Below the pieces are notes generated by a model. The model had not been told where the DNA came from and did no database searches. It worked only from the letters and a program-made list of their open reading frames with translations. A program made the translations under genes and the position numbers. Positions 21,911 through 27,994 of a stretch of DNA of 64,000 bases are shown here, piece by piece (the stretch's first letter is position 1; each line of letters begins with the position of its first letter). This DNA comes from Verrucomicrobiota bacterium (lineage in GTDB: Bacteria; Verrucomicrobiota; Verrucomicrobiia; JADLBR01): positions 1-64,000 of the forward strand of contig JAKQKQ010000123.1 of assembly GCA_029560585.1 (NCBI GenBank), written 5' to 3'.

Positions 21911-21966
21911 TTGACGCGGGCCACGGTTTATATAACTTACCCCATAAGGTTAATCATATTTGCGCC
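21911..21966 (+). promoter_or_regulatory. candidate promoter and Rrf2 operator
   Basis: TTGACG (21911-21916) and TATAAC (21931-21936) resemble a sigma-70 promoter, but the 14-base spacer is short. An imperfect dyad AACTTA-CCCCA-TAAGGTT follows immediately. The string TTATATAACTTACC (21928-21941) recurs as TTATATGACTAAGCC at 22381, in front of the next gene. Autoregulation by the Rrf2 protein is the natural reading. Confidence 0.45.
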
Positions 21967-22368
21967 ATGAAACTCACCGCGCGAAGCGAATACGCCCTGC
22001 TGGCGCTCCTGCGACTGGCCCGCGAGAAGTCCGACGGCTACGTGACCGTCGAGACCATCGCGAGGGCGCAGCGGATCCCGCCCAAGTTTCTCGAACAACT
22101 GCTGCTCGCGCTGAAGCGCGCCAAATACGTTCGCAGCCAGAAGGGCCAGGGCGGGGGCTACCGCCTCGCCCAGCCCGCGAAGTCAATCTCCCTGGCGCAG
22201 GTCATCCGGCTCTTCGACGGCGCCCTCGCCCCAACGGACTCCGTCAGCGAATACTTCTATGAGCCAACGCCGATCGAAAAGGAGAAGGGTCTCGTGAAGG
22301 TGTTCCGGCAAATCCGGAATTTCGTGTCCGACACGCTGGAGGGGACGACGCTCGCCGACGTCATGTGA
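21967..22368 (+). CDS. Rrf2-family transcriptional regulator without cluster cysteines
   Basis: A 133-residue winged-helix protein (MKLTARSEYALLALLRLARE; IARAQRIPPKFLEQLLLALK; SQKGQGGGYRLAQPAKSIS). This is the canonical Rrf2 N-terminal fold of IscR, NsrR, CymR and RsrR. IscR and NsrR sense Fe-S state through three cysteines in the C-terminal half. This protein contains no cysteine at all, so it cannot hold such a cluster by cysteine ligation and may sense something else, as CymR does through a partner protein. It heads an operon for sulfur and metal-cluster handling. The frame continues upstream to 21295, but only the ATG at 21967 gives the family N-terminus. Confidence 0.85.
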   Translation: MKLTARSEYALLALLRLAREKSDGYVTVETIARAQRIPPKFLEQLLLALKRAKYVRSQKGQGGGYRLAQPAKSISLAQVIRLFDGALAPTDSVSEYFYEPTPIEKEKGLVKVFRQIRNFVSDTLEGTTLADVM

Positions 22369-22380
22369 TCTTTTGCCGCA

Positions 22381-22395
22381 TTATATGACTAAGCC
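22381..22395 (+). promoter_or_regulatory. second copy of the TTATAT operator-like motif
   Basis: TTATATGACTAAGCC lies between the Rrf2 gene and the ATPase gene and matches the motif at 21928 at 12 of 15 positions. It is a candidate Rrf2 binding site controlling the downstream genes separately. A GGAG follows eight to ten bases before the ATG at 22417. Confidence 0.35.
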
Positions 22396-22416
22396 GATGG
22401 GATAGGAGATGTACAC

Positions 22417-23202
22417 ATGATAAAGACGATAACGATACTGGGCGGACACGGCCGCGACGGCCAAAGGGAGCCGGTCGAACAGATCGAGCTGAAGATGGGT
22501 GACGTGGCGAGCATCGTTGGGCCCACGGGCTCTGGAAAGACCACGCTGATCAACGACATCGAACTATTCGCCAATGCGAACACGCCGACGGGTCGCCGCA
22601 TCCTGATCAACGGCCAGGTCGCGCCCGCAGAATACCGCGACAATCCGGCCCGCAACCCGATCGCGCTGATAACCCAGCACACGACATTCCTCGCGGACCT
22701 TCCTGTGAACGAATTCCTGACGACGCACGCGAGGATCCGGACGACCGACCACAGCCAGGTCGACGCGCTGGTGGGCAAGGCTCTCTCTTTCGCAAACCAG
22801 CTCACGGGCGAACCGATCCTGGTGCACAGCCGCATGACGGAGCTCTCCGGCGGGCAGACGCGCGCCCTGCTCATCGCCGACGCGACGATCATCTGCAACA
22901 CGCCGATCGTCCTCCTGGACGAGGTCGAGAACGCGGGCATCCACCGCACCCGCGCGCTGGAGCTGCTTCGCCAGTACCAAAAGATCTTCATCTTCGTGAC
23001 GCACGACCCCCGCATCGCCCTTCTGTCCGATTACAGGATCGTGATCGGCGGTGGCTCCATGACTCAGGTCCTCCACACCGACGAGCACGAGCGCGCCTGC
23101 TCCGTTCGCGTCAGCAGGCTCGATGACCTGCTGTCGGGCCTGCGCGACCGGATTCGCATCGGCGGGCGCCTGACCGCGGAGATGATGGAGGAGTTCTCTT
23201 GA
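22417..23202 (+). CDS. ABC-type ATPase without membrane partner
   Basis: A 261-residue soluble ATP-binding cassette protein. Walker A GPTGSGKT is at residues 35-42, the signature LSGGQ at about 144-148, Walker B IVLLDEVENAG follows, and the switch His is in FVTHDPRIALLSDY. No transmembrane permease gene adjoins it. The order of genes around it (Rrf2, GTPase, NifS, Fe-S protein) suggests it drives an assembly or transfer step, as the soluble ABC ATPase SufC does in Fe-S biogenesis. It is not an obvious SufC, having an unusual N-terminus (TITILGGHGRDGQREPVEQI) and a C-terminal extension after residue 215. It overlaps the next gene by four bases (TTGA). Confidence 0.8.
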   Translation: MIKTITILGGHGRDGQREPVEQIELKMGDVASIVGPTGSGKTTLINDIELFANANTPTGRRILINGQVAPAEYRDNPARNPIALITQHTTFLADLPVNEFLTTHARIRTTDHSQVDALVGKALSFANQLTGEPILVHSRMTELSGGQTRALLIADATIICNTPIVLLDEVENAGIHRTRALELLRQYQKIFIFVTHDPRIALLSDYRIVIGGGSMTQVLHTDEHERACSVRVSRLDDLLSGLRDRIRIGGRLTAEMMEEFS

Positions 23203-23900
23203 AACTGGTCATCTGCGCGGGGCCGGCCACCACCGGCAAAACATCGGTCCTCCGGCACATGATCCGGAAATTGATCGACGCCGGCGATCGCGTGGTCTTC
23301 CTGAAGATCGATGTCCAATACGCCGAGGAGGACGAGCAATTCGCCCGGGAGTTTGGGATCCCGACGAAAAAGGTCTATTCGGGCGAACTCTGTCCCGATC
23401 ACTGCAACGTGATGGTGCTGGGCGACGCGCTCCAGTGGGCCAACAGGACCGGCAGCACCGCGCTGGTGGTGGAAACCGCGGGCCTCTGCCTGCGCTGTTC
23501 CCCCTATGTGGACACCGGGCTCGGGATGATCGTGCTCGAGGCCACGAGCGGAATGAACCTCCCCCTGAAGGTTGGGCCGATGCTATCGCTGGCCGATGTC
23601 GCGGTGGTGACCAAGATCGACCGCGTCTCCCAGGCGGAGCGCGAGGTCTTCCGCGCTCGGATCCAGGATGTCGCACCCTCGGTGCGCATCCGCGAGGTCA
23701 ATGCCCTCCACGGGATCGGCATCGACCCGCTGGTGGACATGGTCCGCTCCTCCCCGGACGCGGCGGGCCGCATGCTGCTTCGGGGCAATCCCCCGGTCGG
23801 CACGTGCACCATCTGCGTCGGTAAAAAGGAAGTTGGGTGGCAGTCGCATTTCGGTGTCGTCCGCCCGCTGGAGAATCAGGTGTTCTACCGGGGCGAATAG
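23199..23900 (+). CDS. HypB/UreG-like SIMIBI GTPase with CxxC pairs
   Basis: A 233-residue P-loop GTPase of the type that inserts metals into enzymes. G1 is GPATTGKTS (8-16), the switch region VVETAGLCLRC corresponds to VVENVGNLVCP of HypB, G4 is TKID (138-141), and NALHGIGID resembles the G5 end. It has three cysteine pairs, C65-x3-C69, C97-x2-C100 and C203-x2-C206, well placed for metal or cluster binding. The start is TTG preceded by GGAGGAG at seven bases and overlaps the stop of the ATPase (TTGA). No hydrogenase, urease or CO dehydrogenase genes are in the window, so the client enzyme is unknown. The next gene starts two bases after the stop. Confidence 0.8.
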   Translation: MKLVICAGPATTGKTSVLRHMIRKLIDAGDRVVFLKIDVQYAEEDEQFAREFGIPTKKVYSGELCPDHCNVMVLGDALQWANRTGSTALVVETAGLCLRCSPYVDTGLGMIVLEATSGMNLPLKVGPMLSLADVAVVTKIDRVSQAEREVFRARIQDVAPSVRIREVNALHGIGIDPLVDMVRSSPDAAGRMLLRGNPPVGTCTICVGKKEVGWQSHFGVVRPLENQVFYRGE

Positions 23901-23902
23901 CC

Positions 23903-25084
23903 ATGGCCTTGCGGATCTATATGGACCATGCGGCCACCACGCCCGTGGACCCGCGCGTCGCTTCGGCGATGGAGCCGTACCTGCGGGCCGAGTTTGGCAA
24001 CGCATCCAGCCTGCACGAACCCGGCAGGAGGGCACGCGCCGCCGTTGAGGAGGCGCGGGAGCGGGTGGCCGCCCTGATAAGTGCGTCACCGGACGAGATC
24101 GTCTTCACGGCGAGCGGCACCGAGTCCAACAACATGGCGCTGGCTGGCACCGCCGATGCCTCGGGTTTATCGGGCGCCCGCATCATAACCAGCGCGATCG
24201 AACACCCGTCCGTCCTAGAGACGGCGCGCCACCTTTCGCGGCGCGGGACGATGGTCACGAGCCTGCCCGTAAATGACGAGGGGCTCGTGGATCCGGCCGC
24301 GCTGTTGGCGGCGCTGCGCCCGGAAGTGCGCCTGATCTCGATCATGGCGGCCAACAACGTTGTCGGAACCATTCAGTTCTTGACCGAATTGGCCCAAATG
24401 GCCCGCGAGTCCGGCGTCCTGTTTCACACGGACGCGGTGCAGGCGGCAGGCAAGATCCCCCTGAACGTGCGGGAGACGCCCGTCGATCTGATGTCGATTT
24501 CCGCCCACAAGCTCCACGGGCCGAAGGGCGTCGGCGCACTGTACGTCCGCAGGGGCGCAAGGATCGAACCCCTGATTCGCGGCGGCGGCCAGGAGCGCGG
24601 GCTGCGTTCCGCCACGGAAAATGTCGCCGGGATCGTGGGCTTCGGTTGCGCGGCCGAGCTGGCGCGTACCACGATGGCCGCCGAAAACGTCAAGCTTGTC
24701 GCGCTGCGCGACCGCATCATCGGGGCGGTGATCGAGCGAGTCCCGGGCACCAACCTGATCGGCCATCCGACCCGGCGTCTCCCGGGGCACATCTGCCTTG
24801 GGTTTCACGGCCTGGAGGGCGAGGCCATCAAGCTTCTGCTGGAGTTGGACGAGGCGGGAATCGCCATATCGTCGGGCAGTGCCTGCAGCGCGCACCACGC
24901 GGGCGAACCGTCGCACGTTCTGCTGGCGATGGGCTTCGACCCGGTCTGCGCGCGCGGCTCGCTCAGAATCACATTGGGCCGATTCAACACCCACAAGGAA
25001 GTCGATCGACTTCTGAAGATTCTACCCAACGCCGTGGCCTCCCTGCGTCCAGGGATGACGCGTTGCGCCACGACAAAGCCATGA
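23903..25084 (+). CDS. cysteine desulfurase, NifS/IscS type
   Basis: A 393-residue PLP enzyme that takes sulfur from L-cysteine as a persulfide for cluster assembly or thiolation. It begins YMDHAATTPVDPRV, has the PLP lysine in SAHKLHGPKG and the active-site cysteine in SSGSACSAHHAGEPSHVL, and RGGGQERGLRSATENVAGIV lies between them. The short active-site loop without a long insertion and overall length place it with the NifS/IscS group I enzymes. ATG 23903 gives the family N-terminus; the frame upstream from 23837 overlaps the GTPase and is ignored. Placed third of four structural genes in the Rrf2-led operon, it is the sulfur donor of that system. Confidence 0.9.
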   Translation: MALRIYMDHAATTPVDPRVASAMEPYLRAEFGNASSLHEPGRRARAAVEEARERVAALISASPDEIVFTASGTESNNMALAGTADASGLSGARIITSAIEHPSVLETARHLSRRGTMVTSLPVNDEGLVDPAALLAALRPEVRLISIMAANNVVGTIQFLTELAQMARESGVLFHTDAVQAAGKIPLNVRETPVDLMSISAHKLHGPKGVGALYVRRGARIEPLIRGGGQERGLRSATENVAGIVGFGCAAELARTTMAAENVKLVALRDRIIGAVIERVPGTNLIGHPTRRLPGHICLGFHGLEGEAIKLLLELDEAGIAISSGSACSAHHAGEPSHVLLAMGFDPVCARGSLRITLGRFNTHKEVDRLLKILPNAVASLRPGMTRCATTKP

Positions 25085-25099
25085 AGAAAGGGAATCGAA

Positions 25100-25837
25100 A
25101 TGACAACGACTGCAAATGAACTGCCGGGACTCGATTGCGGGGTCTGCGGATTCAGAACCTGCGCGGAGATGGCCGTGCGACTGGAGACCGAACCCCAGAT
25201 GCTGAAGCGATGCATCCATCTTTCATCAAACCGGATCACGGGATCCGAAAACGCGGTGGCGGTCGCGCCGACGCGACCGATCTCGGATGCGCCCTGTGAT
25301 CCCGCGTCGTGCGGCCCATCTGCCTGCGCGGCGTGCGGCGCGGCAGGTCCCGGGGCGCACGAGTCCCCGCAGTGGCGCGATAGCCTCGGGCGCGAGTTCG
25401 ATTTCTACCTCGAACATTTTCCCGAAGAGCCCGGACCACGCGAAATCATCCTCCCGCACAATCCCCTCATCACGCGCGAGATGGATGTGCGGGTGGGCGA
25501 TGTCCTGATCGGGCGGCCTCTCGGCATGTCCTGCGGTTGCCCCATCACGCATTGCGGCATCGCGATGAATGTCGATCCGCGCACGGGCGTCATCGTTTGG
25601 TGCGTGACGGGTCCCCTCCAGCCCCGGCAGCAGGGCTACAAGGACCTCGGCTACTACATCGCCGAGGGATACGAGGGCCTGGCCACGCACCCCCGCTCCG
25701 AGATCAAGATCGGCATGCGGTACTATTTCCAGCCCCGCATGTGCATGCTACAGTGGCGGCACAGCGGGCTCGTGAATTTCGTCAACCGGTCAAACGAGGG
25801 CCTGCAAATCCGCGTCGAGGGCCTTTGGATCGGTTAG
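25100..25837 (+). CDS. Fe-S protein with RnfB/AcsC-type cluster domain
   Basis: A 245-residue protein. Residues 13-38 carry Cx2CGx3Cx16C (LDCGVCGFRTC ... KRC), the PF04060 4Fe-4S motif also found in RnfB and the corrinoid Fe-S protein of acetyl-CoA synthesis. A short cysteine-rich linker follows (CDPASCGPSACAACG). The C-terminal half is a conserved domain with MSCGCPITHCGIAMNVDPRT and RYYFQPRMCMLQW that I do not recognise by name. AAAGGG precedes the ATG by seven bases. As the last gene of the Rrf2 operon it could be a scaffold, the electron donor for cluster assembly, or the product to be matured. At least four cysteines beyond the first motif suggest more than one cluster. Confidence 0.75.
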   Translation: MTTTANELPGLDCGVCGFRTCAEMAVRLETEPQMLKRCIHLSSNRITGSENAVAVAPTRPISDAPCDPASCGPSACAACGAAGPGAHESPQWRDSLGREFDFYLEHFPEEPGPREIILPHNPLITREMDVRVGDVLIGRPLGMSCGCPITHCGIAMNVDPRTGVIVWCVTGPLQPRQQGYKDLGYYIAEGYEGLATHPRSEIKIGMRYYFQPRMCMLQWRHSGLVNFVNRSNEGLQIRVEGLWIG

Positions 25838-25991: not shown

Positions 25992-26846
25992 ATGCCCCAG
26001 ACTGACTCCCGCCATCGGACGCCCGCCTTCACCGGTCCGGTCGAGTTCGCTCCGGGCTTCGCACCGCGCGGGGGCATCCACCACGTCCTCTTCGATTGGG
26101 ATGGGACCCTTTCGCTCATCCGCGCGGGATGGGCCGAGGTCATGACCCCGATGTTTGCCGAGATGCTCCCGCCGCTGCCCGGCGAAAGCGAAAAGGACCG
26201 CCGGGATTTGGCCTTCGAGGACATCATGCGCCTCAACGGCAAGCAGACGATCTATCAGATGATCCAATTGGCCGATCGCGTTCGGGAACGCGGCGGCGAA
26301 CCCCGCGAGCCCCTCTGGTATAAGCACGAATACCTTCGCCGGCTCGATGTGCGCATACGGCACCGGCTCGAAGGCATCGAGGCCGGGACCATCCGGCCGG
26401 ATGACATGCTGGTCCACGGCGCACGCGATCTGCTCGAGGCCCTGGCGCGCCGAGGCCTGACCCTGCATCTCGCAAGCGGCACCGACGAGCCGTTCGTCAG
26501 GCGCGAGGCCGACCTCCTGGATGTCACCCGTTACTTCGGACGCCGCGTGCATGGCGCGCTCGACGACTACAAGAAGTTTTCAAAAAAAATGGTCATCGAC
26601 CGCATCCTCGAGGAAAATCGAATCGCTGGCGCCACCCTGCTGGCGTTTGGCGATGGCTATGTTGAGATCGAGAACACTGTCGAGGTCGGCGGCCTGGCCG
26701 TCGCCGTCGCCAGCGACGAGCAGCACAACGGCTCGGGTCGCATGGACGCCTGGAAGCGTGCCCGCCTCCTCGGCGTTGGGGCCCATGCCGTCATACCCGA
26801 TTATCGCGATGCGCAATCGCTGTTGGAATTGATTCTTGGCCCGTGA
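25992..26846 (+). CDS. HAD-family hydrolase
   Basis: A 284-residue phosphatase-like protein of the haloacid dehalogenase superfamily. Motif I is FDWDGTLS (Asp35 and Asp37), motif II lies in HLASGTDEP, the conserved lysine is in FSKKMVIDR, and motif IV is FGDGYVE. The long cap region between motifs I and II (about 100 residues) resembles phosphoglycolate- or beta-phosphoglucomutase-type enzymes; the substrate is probably a sugar phosphate. The ATG at 25992 was chosen over 25953 because the preceding residues have no family character; no clear ribosome-binding site is seen for either. The TGA overlaps the GTG start of the next gene (GTGA), so both products are likely to work together. Confidence 0.75.
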   Translation: MPQTDSRHRTPAFTGPVEFAPGFAPRGGIHHVLFDWDGTLSLIRAGWAEVMTPMFAEMLPPLPGESEKDRRDLAFEDIMRLNGKQTIYQMIQLADRVRERGGEPREPLWYKHEYLRRLDVRIRHRLEGIEAGTIRPDDMLVHGARDLLEALARRGLTLHLASGTDEPFVRREADLLDVTRYFGRRVHGALDDYKKFSKKMVIDRILEENRIAGATLLAFGDGYVEIENTVEVGGLAVAVASDEQHNGSGRMDAWKRARLLGVGAHAVIPDYRDAQSLLELILGP

Positions 26847-27994
26847 GCACGACCGCACCAAACGGGGACCCTCGCCCAGCGGTCCGCCGAAAGGCGGGGC
26901 CTATCGATCTCGCGAAGCTCCGCACGCGGCCCCTCGCCGAGCGCAACAGCCTCACCCGGGCCGAGGACATCCTCATCGATCCCGATGCGTCGCCACCCCC
27001 CCTTCCCGCCCTGGCCGTCGGCGCGGTCGGCGAATGCGCGGCACGAATCAGATCAGCCCGCGCCCGCGGAGCCGCCATCATGCTCATCTACGGCGCCCAT
27101 CTGCTTCGCAATGGCGCCGCAGCCATCGTCGGTCGCCTGATCGAGCGCGGCTGGCTGACGCATGTGGCCACCAACGGCGCCGGCGCCATCCATGACTGGG
27201 AGTATGCATGGCTGGGCCGTTCCACGGAAAGCGTCCGCGAAAACGTTGCGGCCGGCTGTTTCGGCACCTGGGATGAGACGTCGCGCAACATCCATCTGGC
27301 CCTGATGGCCGGCGCGCTCGACGGCCTCGGTTTCGGCCAATCGGTCGGGCGCTTCATCGCGGAGGACGGCACCGCCCTGCCCGAAGTCAATACCCTCGCC
27401 AACGCGATCGCCGACGATCCCGCCCACCCCCTGACCGCCGCCCGCGCCGATCTCCTTCGCGCCATGCGCGAGCAACGCATCCCAGGCGGCACCGCGCGCA
27501 TCGAGCACCGCTGGAGACACGCCTCGATCCTCGCGCAGGCTTGGAGCCTCGGCATTCCCGCAACCGTTCATCCCGGCATCGGCTACGACATCATCACCTG
27601 CCATCCCGTTTTCAACGGCGCGGTGATCGGACGAGCGGGGGATCTGGACTTCAGGCTCTTCGCGGGATCCGTGGATCGCCTCGACGGCGGGGTCGCACTC
27701 TCCGTCGGTTCCGCCATCATGGGCCCGCAGGTTTTTGAGAAGTCTCTCAGTTGCGCGAACAACCTGCGGCTTCAGCATGGGCGCCCCATCGTCTCGGACC
27801 ACGCCATCTATGTCGTCGATCTCCAAGACGGCGGCGGCTGGGATTGGTCGCAGGGCGAACCCCCGAAGACAAGCGCCGCATATTACCTCCGCTTCTGCAA
27901 GAGCTACGTCCGCATGGGCGGCGCGATGCACTACGTCCAGTGCGACAACGCCGCATTCGCCCACCACCTCCTCCGCGCCCTGGAGAGCGCCTAA
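26843..27994 (+). CDS. conserved protein of unknown function
   Basis: A 383-residue soluble protein that I cannot name. It has strongly conserved-looking glycine-rich segments: IMLIYGAHLLRNGAAAIVGR (80-99), then THVATNGAGAIHDWEYAWLG (107-126), a segment ATVHPGIGYDIITCHPVFNG, and a C-terminus with RMGGAMHYVQCDNAAFAHHL. The NGAGAIHD stretch and the alternation of short hydrophobic strands suggest a Rossmann-like nucleotide or sugar-phosphate binding fold. A distant likeness to deoxyhypusine-synthase-like folds crossed my mind but is unproven. It starts with GTG overlapping the stop of the HAD hydrolase (GTGA), arguing for a shared pathway, possibly a sugar-phosphate route with the PfkB kinase at 33.9 kb. 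Confidence 0.65.
   Translation: MSTTAPNGDPRPAVRRKAGPIDLAKLRTRPLAERNSLTRAEDILIDPDASPPPLPALAVGAVGECAARIRSARARGAAIMLIYGAHLLRNGAAAIVGRLIERGWLTHVATNGAGAIHDWEYAWLGRSTESVRENVAAGCFGTWDETSRNIHLALMAGALDGLGFGQSVGRFIAEDGTALPEVNTLANAIADDPAHPLTAARADLLRAMREQRIPGGTARIEHRWRHASILAQAWSLGIPATVHPGIGYDIITCHPVFNGAVIGRAGDLDFRLFAGSVDRLDGGVALSVGSAIMGPQVFEKSLSCANNLRLQHGRPIVSDHAIYVVDLQDGGGWDWSQGEPPKTSAAYYLRFCKSYVRMGGAMHYVQCDNAAFAHHLLRALESA

Follow-up and report, generated by a model that had tools for sequence, protein, structure and literature searches.

The described systems closest to the locus reported here each share part of its make-up. SUF and SMS, two systems for iron-sulfur (Fe-S) clusters, pair an ABC ATPase that has no permease (SufC or SmsC) with SufB or SmsB; the composition of SMS, in which cysteine desulfurase is absent, and that of MIS have been set out (PMC12192291). 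A permease-free ABC ATPase also helps to activate methyl-coenzyme M reductase (MCR), with nitrogenase-type Fe-S clusters as the electron path (PMC12176620). The metal chaperones UreG and HypB are GTPases of the SIMIBI fold (PF02492) with the G4 motif TKID and Cys/His pairs that include CPDH, and both the CFeSP large subunit (AcsC) and RnfB carry an N-terminal [4Fe-4S] motif (PF04060). We describe an operon that combines relatives of these parts on contig JAKQKQ010000123.1 of a Verrucomicrobiota bacterium (7.06 Mb assembly GCA_029560585.1, 95.7% complete); "the window" is the whole stretch analysed, positions 1 to 64,000 of that contig. The operon is confirmed and, within the scope of our searches, undescribed. 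Its five genes lie on the + strand at 21967-25837, with junctions of 48, -4, 2 and 15 bases, and its features are as follows.

21934-21951, + strand: probable operator upstream of rrf2 (AACTTACCCCATAAGGTT, an imperfect palindrome; from the sequence)
21967-22368, + strand: rrf2, Rrf2-family regulator, 133 residues (PF02082, 1.5e-33, 116 bits)
22387-22401, + strand: probable second operator, in the rrf2-ABC interval (GACTAAGCCGATGGG, one mismatch to KACTAANNNNATAGG)
22417-23202, + strand: ABC ATPase gene, 261 residues (PF00005, 2.5e-15, 58 bits)
23199-23900, + strand: GTPase gene, 233 residues, TTG start (PF02492, 2.3e-10, 41 bits)
23903-25084, + strand: nifS, cysteine desulfurase, 393 residues (TIGR03402, 2.9e-143, 477 bits)
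25100-25837, + strand: gene of the two-part Fe-S protein, 245 residues (PF04060, N-terminal, 31 bits)
25121-25216, + strand: N-terminal [4Fe-4S] motif of the Fe-S protein (C13-x2-C16-x4-C21-x16-C38)
25358-25834, + strand: C-terminal beta domain of the Fe-S protein (C147/H151/C215/H221 invariant; alignments and structure model)

The families were assigned by Pfam and NCBIfam profile searches. These uphold the labels (Rrf2, ABC ATPase, HypB/UreG-like GTPase, NifS, RnfB/AcsC-type Fe-S protein) of a first-pass annotation made from the letters alone, and the five genes, their coordinates, junctions and single strand are exactly as it gave them. It had also seen neither a permease nor a client enzyme near the operon, and we likewise found no permease, scaffold or metalloenzyme beside it.

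Scanning 84,980 genomes with a GTPase alignment yielded at least 568 relatives, and the loci analysed here are the best 80 of these, whose GTPases are 50-87% identical to that of the window. The carriers among them belong to the Chloroflexota, Planctomycetota, Omnitrophota, Acidobacteriota, Bacteroidota, Pseudomonadota, Bacillota, Actinomycetota, two archaeal groups and others; in all, relatives of the operon span 19 phylum-level groups. Gene order was counted in the 59 loci with enough flank. The order ABC-GTPase-(NifS)-FeS on one strand is found in 55 of these 59, with median gaps of 2-14 bases; the ABC gene adjoins the GTPase gene in 57, most often through a 4-base overlap, and the Fe-S protein gene is present in 56. 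With gene order and close spacing preserved in so many relatives, the arrangement is far beyond chance. NifS is encoded at 29 of the 59 loci and is thus absent from about half, and rrf2 stands ahead of the ABC gene in 17, being absent from about 70%. The obligatory unit is therefore ABC-GTPase-FeS, while NifS and Rrf2 are optional. The first-pass annotation had proposed a single five-gene system and a synteny check; the check bears out the three-gene core, which stays together across many phyla, but not the five genes as a unit. Nor did we find the gene set described in the open literature (subscription papers and unnamed annotations lie outside this scope), which agrees with the earlier view that it is undescribed. 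The mlp/methyltransferase clusters were considered as a match and rejected, as these operon parts are not mentioned there (PMC10418091). An apparent ABC-GTPase fusion in one relative (L028) was also rejected, the contig having an ambiguous base and a frameshift. By eye, the three-gene core of Pelotomaculum (L093) sits amid NAD-biosynthesis genes, with nadA-/nadB-like genes upstream and nadC-/birA-like genes downstream.

Since the three core genes are inseparable and the Fe-S protein is the only one of the three products that is not a nucleotide triphosphatase (NTPase), we infer, as the simplest reading, that the two NTPases act on the Fe-S protein. We tentatively favor a reading, held at somewhat less than even odds, in which this nucleotide-driven three-protein module both matures and energises its own Fe-S protein for the supply of reduced sulfur. 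The Fe-S protein would be at once what the module produces and what does its work. Sulfur would come from NifS or, at loci without it, from a desulfurase of the host; the GTPase, through its three Cys/His pairs, would load metal into a site formed by C147, H151, C215 and H221; and the ABC ATPase would power a step into the CFeSP/RnfB-type [4Fe-4S] center, either conformational or of low-potential electron transfer. Once matured, the Fe-S protein would help to supply reduced sulfur for the synthesis of cysteine and homocysteine.

The N-terminal part of the Fe-S protein matches PF04060 (30.8 bits against a cutoff of 23), as do all 42 homologues, and the conserved ligands C13, C16, C21 and C38, for one cluster, form a motif of the CFeSP large subunit/RnfB type. 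It differs from AcsC and RnfB in having neither a corrinoid-binding TIM barrel nor a membrane-bound ferredoxin chain or Rnf complex, and because these other domains are missing it is, by domain make-up, not CFeSP or RnfB. The C-terminal half, the second domain that had been left unnamed in the earlier reading, is confirmed to lack a known family, with no match in Pfam. The AlphaFold model of the full-length protein has a mean pLDDT of 84, and that of the C-terminal 155-residue beta domain a pLDDT of 92 and a pTM of 0.86. Foldseek found no match at E<=0.001 for the domain in PDB or BFVD, the libraries to which a statement of "no known fold" is limited, and none at that threshold in PDB for the full-length model. 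Alignments show C147, H151, C215 and H221 to be invariant across 60 homologues, and this set is a probable metal site.

The GTPase keeps the features shared with UreG and HypB, which are its nearest solved metal-chaperone relatives (PDB profile matches of 2e-11 and 7e-10, respectively). The three metal-ligand pairs noticed earlier are present, one of them being C-x2-H, and C65-P-D-H68, C97-x2-C100 and C203-x2-C206 are 100% conserved in the 80 sequences. It departs from both chaperones in having three invariant pairs and in its partners, an ABC ATPase and an Fe-S protein. Its equivalog scores (48 of 121 bits for HypB, 20 of 204 for UreG) are far below the cutoffs, and on that account the module is not HypB or UreG. 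Urease and NiFe hydrogenase are not in the neighborhoods inspected, apart from one NiFe hydrogenase seen by eye near L022 on the opposite strand, which is probably there by chance.

The motifs of the ABC ATPase are complete (Walker A GPTGSGKTT, LSGGQ signature, Walker B LLDE and H-loop), and no membrane permease is encoded in the window operon or recurs as a partner among the neighbors of the 80 loci. For such a protein the activation complex of methyl-coenzyme M reductase, with its component A2, is a possible working analogy, as it too joins a permease-free ABC ATPase to an Fe-S electron path (PMC12176620). By this analogy, the ABC ATPase would drive a conformational or low-potential electron step of the Fe-S protein. 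The likeness has its bounds: component A2 consists of two fused ABC domains, the locus described here has no McrC/Mmp proteins or MCR and does have a GTPase and NifS, and no homology between the two ATPases is shown beyond the ABC fold.

SUF and SMS offer the other comparison for a permease-free ABC ATPase beside an Fe-S protein, here with a cysteine desulfurase. In NifS the PLP lysine (SAHK) and the catalytic cysteine (SSGSACSAHH) are in place; its score against TIGR03402 is 477 bits, under the equivalog cutoff of 531. The resemblance of the parts to SUF/SMS logic (for SMS, PMC12192291) would suit a general Fe-S assembly or repair system induced at cysteine shortage, with the Fe-S protein as a new scaffold and the ABC ATPase in the role of SufC. 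Such a system would also fit the regulator, a member of the Rrf2 family, and some neighborhoods, namely L087, where IscU-like and Mrp-like genes lie upstream (by eye), and L054 and L082, which have Mrp-like genes nearby. We nevertheless consider it improbable. The ABC ATPase is not SufC-like: among solved structures it is closest to ordinary transporter ATPases, and none of the 60 best chains bears the name SufC or SmsC. There is no SufB or SufD, the Fe-S protein is a different one, and no U-type or SufB-type scaffold is found among the operon proteins, as the earlier claim of a scaffold unlike those of Isc, Suf and Nif had it; lacking a scaffold, the module is by gene content not ISC, NIF, SUF, SMS or MIS. 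The module also adds a GTPase, and metal-insertion GTPases are not known to take part in any of the five. Most loci have no linked general Fe-S client or carrier. Lastly, IscR, RirA and NsrR carry cluster-ligand cysteines, but the window Rrf2 has no cysteine at all, nor do 18 of 26 relatives, and the Fe-S-sensing mode of these regulators is therefore excluded.

The best NCBIfam equivalog of the regulator is CymR, the cysteine regulator, at 75 bits, which is below the cutoff of 195. Relatives from several phyla carry the palindrome KACTAANNNNATAGG upstream of rrf2, of the ABC gene or of both, and the palindrome at 21934-21951 of the window matches it only approximately. Strict matches in seven genomes lie at the operon in nine of ten cases, the tenth being elsewhere (G348:C233, L175); a reversed-pattern control gives similar counts per genome, so that the operator evidence is one of position and not of number. 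Because of this placement, Rrf2 looks like a dedicated autoregulator of the operon.

The link to sulfur comes from the neighbors of the relatives. Clustering every open reading frame of the 80 loci leaves, besides shadow frames and the generic ABC-ATPase superfamily, only two non-core families present in at least ten loci: CysK (cysteine synthase/cystathionine beta-synthase) and MetY (O-acetylhomoserine sulfhydrylase/cystathionine gamma-synthase). A sulfur-assimilation gene lies in the fetched flanks of 22 of the 80 loci as against one of 39 control regions from the same genomes (Fisher p 5e-4), which corresponds to 34.6 versus 1.5 matches per Mb. These neighbors (CysK 14, MetY 10, MetX 4, MetW 4, sulfate-binding protein 3, CysE 3, MetQ 2, CysD 1) occur in about ten phyla, and curated models confirm MetX, MetW, CysD, sulfate-binding protein, MetN, MetQ and serine acetyltransferase among them. 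On the operon's own strand, cysK and metY follow it in L043, and cysK and cysE in L019. The neighborhood gives strong support to the sulfur link, short of proof, and together with the type of regulator it points to the supply of reduced sulfur for cysteine and homocysteine.

Several observations count against maturation of the Fe-S protein for sulfur supply. Fifty-eight of the 80 loci have no sulfur gene nearby, and neither has the operon described here: no sulfur-assimilation gene was found within the whole 64-kb window. The sulfur query set was picked after the loci had been inspected, and the loci, being related by descent, do not count as independent. A wider Rrf2 regulon was considered and rejected, as the strict operator sites are at the operon save one, so in the genomes scanned no wider sulfur regulon runs through Rrf2. 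In Bacillota, NifS and Rrf2 are both missing, and the Fe-S protein of most members is divergent (about 30% identity), in mixed contexts. No downstream enzyme or substrate common to the carriers was found among the families tested, and both metal binding and the coupling of the ATPase to the Fe-S protein are predictions.

The lack of a common enzyme also bears on the proposal of the first-pass annotation, by which the operon would assemble a complex metal-sulfur center for delivery to a metalloenzyme encoded elsewhere. NifS, a UreG-like GTPase, an ABC ATPase and an Fe-S protein are indeed parts of maturation systems, and in Pararhodospirillum oryzae (L036, 2768-8805) the operon adjoins a family 2A encapsulin and NifB/NifD/NifK-like genes. 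The co-occurrence of metalloenzymes that was suggested as a check, however, reveals no family common to carriers: nitrogenase-like proteins are present in 8 of 50 and are missing from the window genome, the CODH/hybrid-cluster protein (HCP) family is present in 26 of 50, and siroheme sulfite/nitrite reductase (PF01077) in 18 of 49. Nitrogenase-like and CODH/HCP clients were rejected on these counts, and NifS, the sulfur donor, is missing from half of the loci. We therefore judge this proposal unlikely, at perhaps one chance in four. Thus the conserved, apparently undescribed operon with its named parts stands, and the five-gene unit and the distant client are not supported. Metallocluster assembly as such is possible, its likeliest target being the operon's own Fe-S protein. 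As a separate observation, the Nif-like genes of L036 resemble sulfur-acquiring nitrogenase-like reductases of the MarBHDK/IsrBHDK type.

Siroheme reductase is absent from 31 of the 49 carriers, several of which have CysH and/or CysD, and this suggested a siroheme-free assimilatory reductase, in which the Fe-S protein itself would reduce sulfite or another oxidised sulfur compound, driven by ATP. A sulfate-binding protein gene adjoins the operon in L033, whose genome has no siroheme reductase, but there neither CysH nor CysD was seen either. The control came from 198 Bacteroidales genomes, where the operon Fe-S protein is found in 13, siroheme reductase in 13 and both in one. Siroheme reductase is thus equally rare with the operon (1/13) and without it (12/185). 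CysH, the APS/PAPS reductase, is present in 127 of the 198 (about 110 at >44% identity) and in 11 of the 13 with the operon, and its occurrence without siroheme reductase is common in operon-free Bacteroidales; either sulfite is reduced there by something else or CysH has another role. In addition, the window genome has both siroheme reductase and CysH. Since the control shows no association, the siroheme-independent sulfite reductase was rejected as a main explanation and demoted to a rival that we regard as very unlikely. By eye, two Chloroflexota without siroheme reductase (L099, 5997-8395; L101, 1777-4193) have a CysH-like gene and, directly after it, an Elp3-like radical SAM gene some 550 codons long.

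A bolder form of the favored reading, Fe-S protein maturation for sulfur supply, is rather doubtful, with odds of about one in five. Here the module would be a further kind of nucleotide-powered redox metalloenzyme, unrelated to nitrogenase-like reductases, in which the ABC ATPase and the metal-loading GTPase drive a two-center Fe-S protein, with its new domain, that reduces some sulfur compound for assimilation, and it would have spread horizontally.

Such spread fits the distribution. GTPases of this kind occur in only four other genomes of 289 from the window's phylum, at 36-41% identity, and these four (L011, L012, L013, L014) belong to a different cluster; a search with the Fe-S protein in 56 genomes related to that of the window at the level of genus, order or class gave no credible match or operon. 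In a maximum-likelihood tree of the GTPase, the window sequence is nearest to Chloroflexota, and the tree needs 30 phylum-label changes against a minimum of 18, although it has rough bootstrap support and is subject to noise from binning errors in metagenome assemblies. The patchy presence in its own phylum and the tree together are consistent with horizontal transfer of the operon between phyla.

The different cluster, SBP_bac_6-GTPase-ABC, resembles the window operon in its GTPase (36-37% identical) and ABC ATPase (41%), which lie side by side, and differs from it in lacking the Fe-S protein, NifS and Rrf2. In both examples examined (L011 and L012), a solute-binding-like SBP_bac_6 protein without an evident signal sequence takes the place of the Fe-S protein; DUF1858 accompanies it in L011, and in L014 the module comes after TonB-receptor and Fec-type genes (by eye).

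The module is highly conserved, with GTPases up to 87% identical between phyla, and within a gene set undescribed in the literature searched it holds a domain for which the libraries searched offer no known family or fold. Should the sulfur link be true, the module would point to a missing step of sulfur acquisition or metal-center maturation in uncultivated lineages. Cultured carriers are Rhodoblastus sphagnicola, Pararhodospirillum oryzae, Heliobacterium mobile and H. chlorum; of these, R. sphagnicola has ABC-GTPase-NifS-FeS and H. mobile the set of three genes. Downstream of the operon, at 26843-27994 of the window, lies a gene for a 383-residue protein with no Pfam family match at E 1e-5, which overlaps the HAD hydrolase gene upstream of it by 4 bases.

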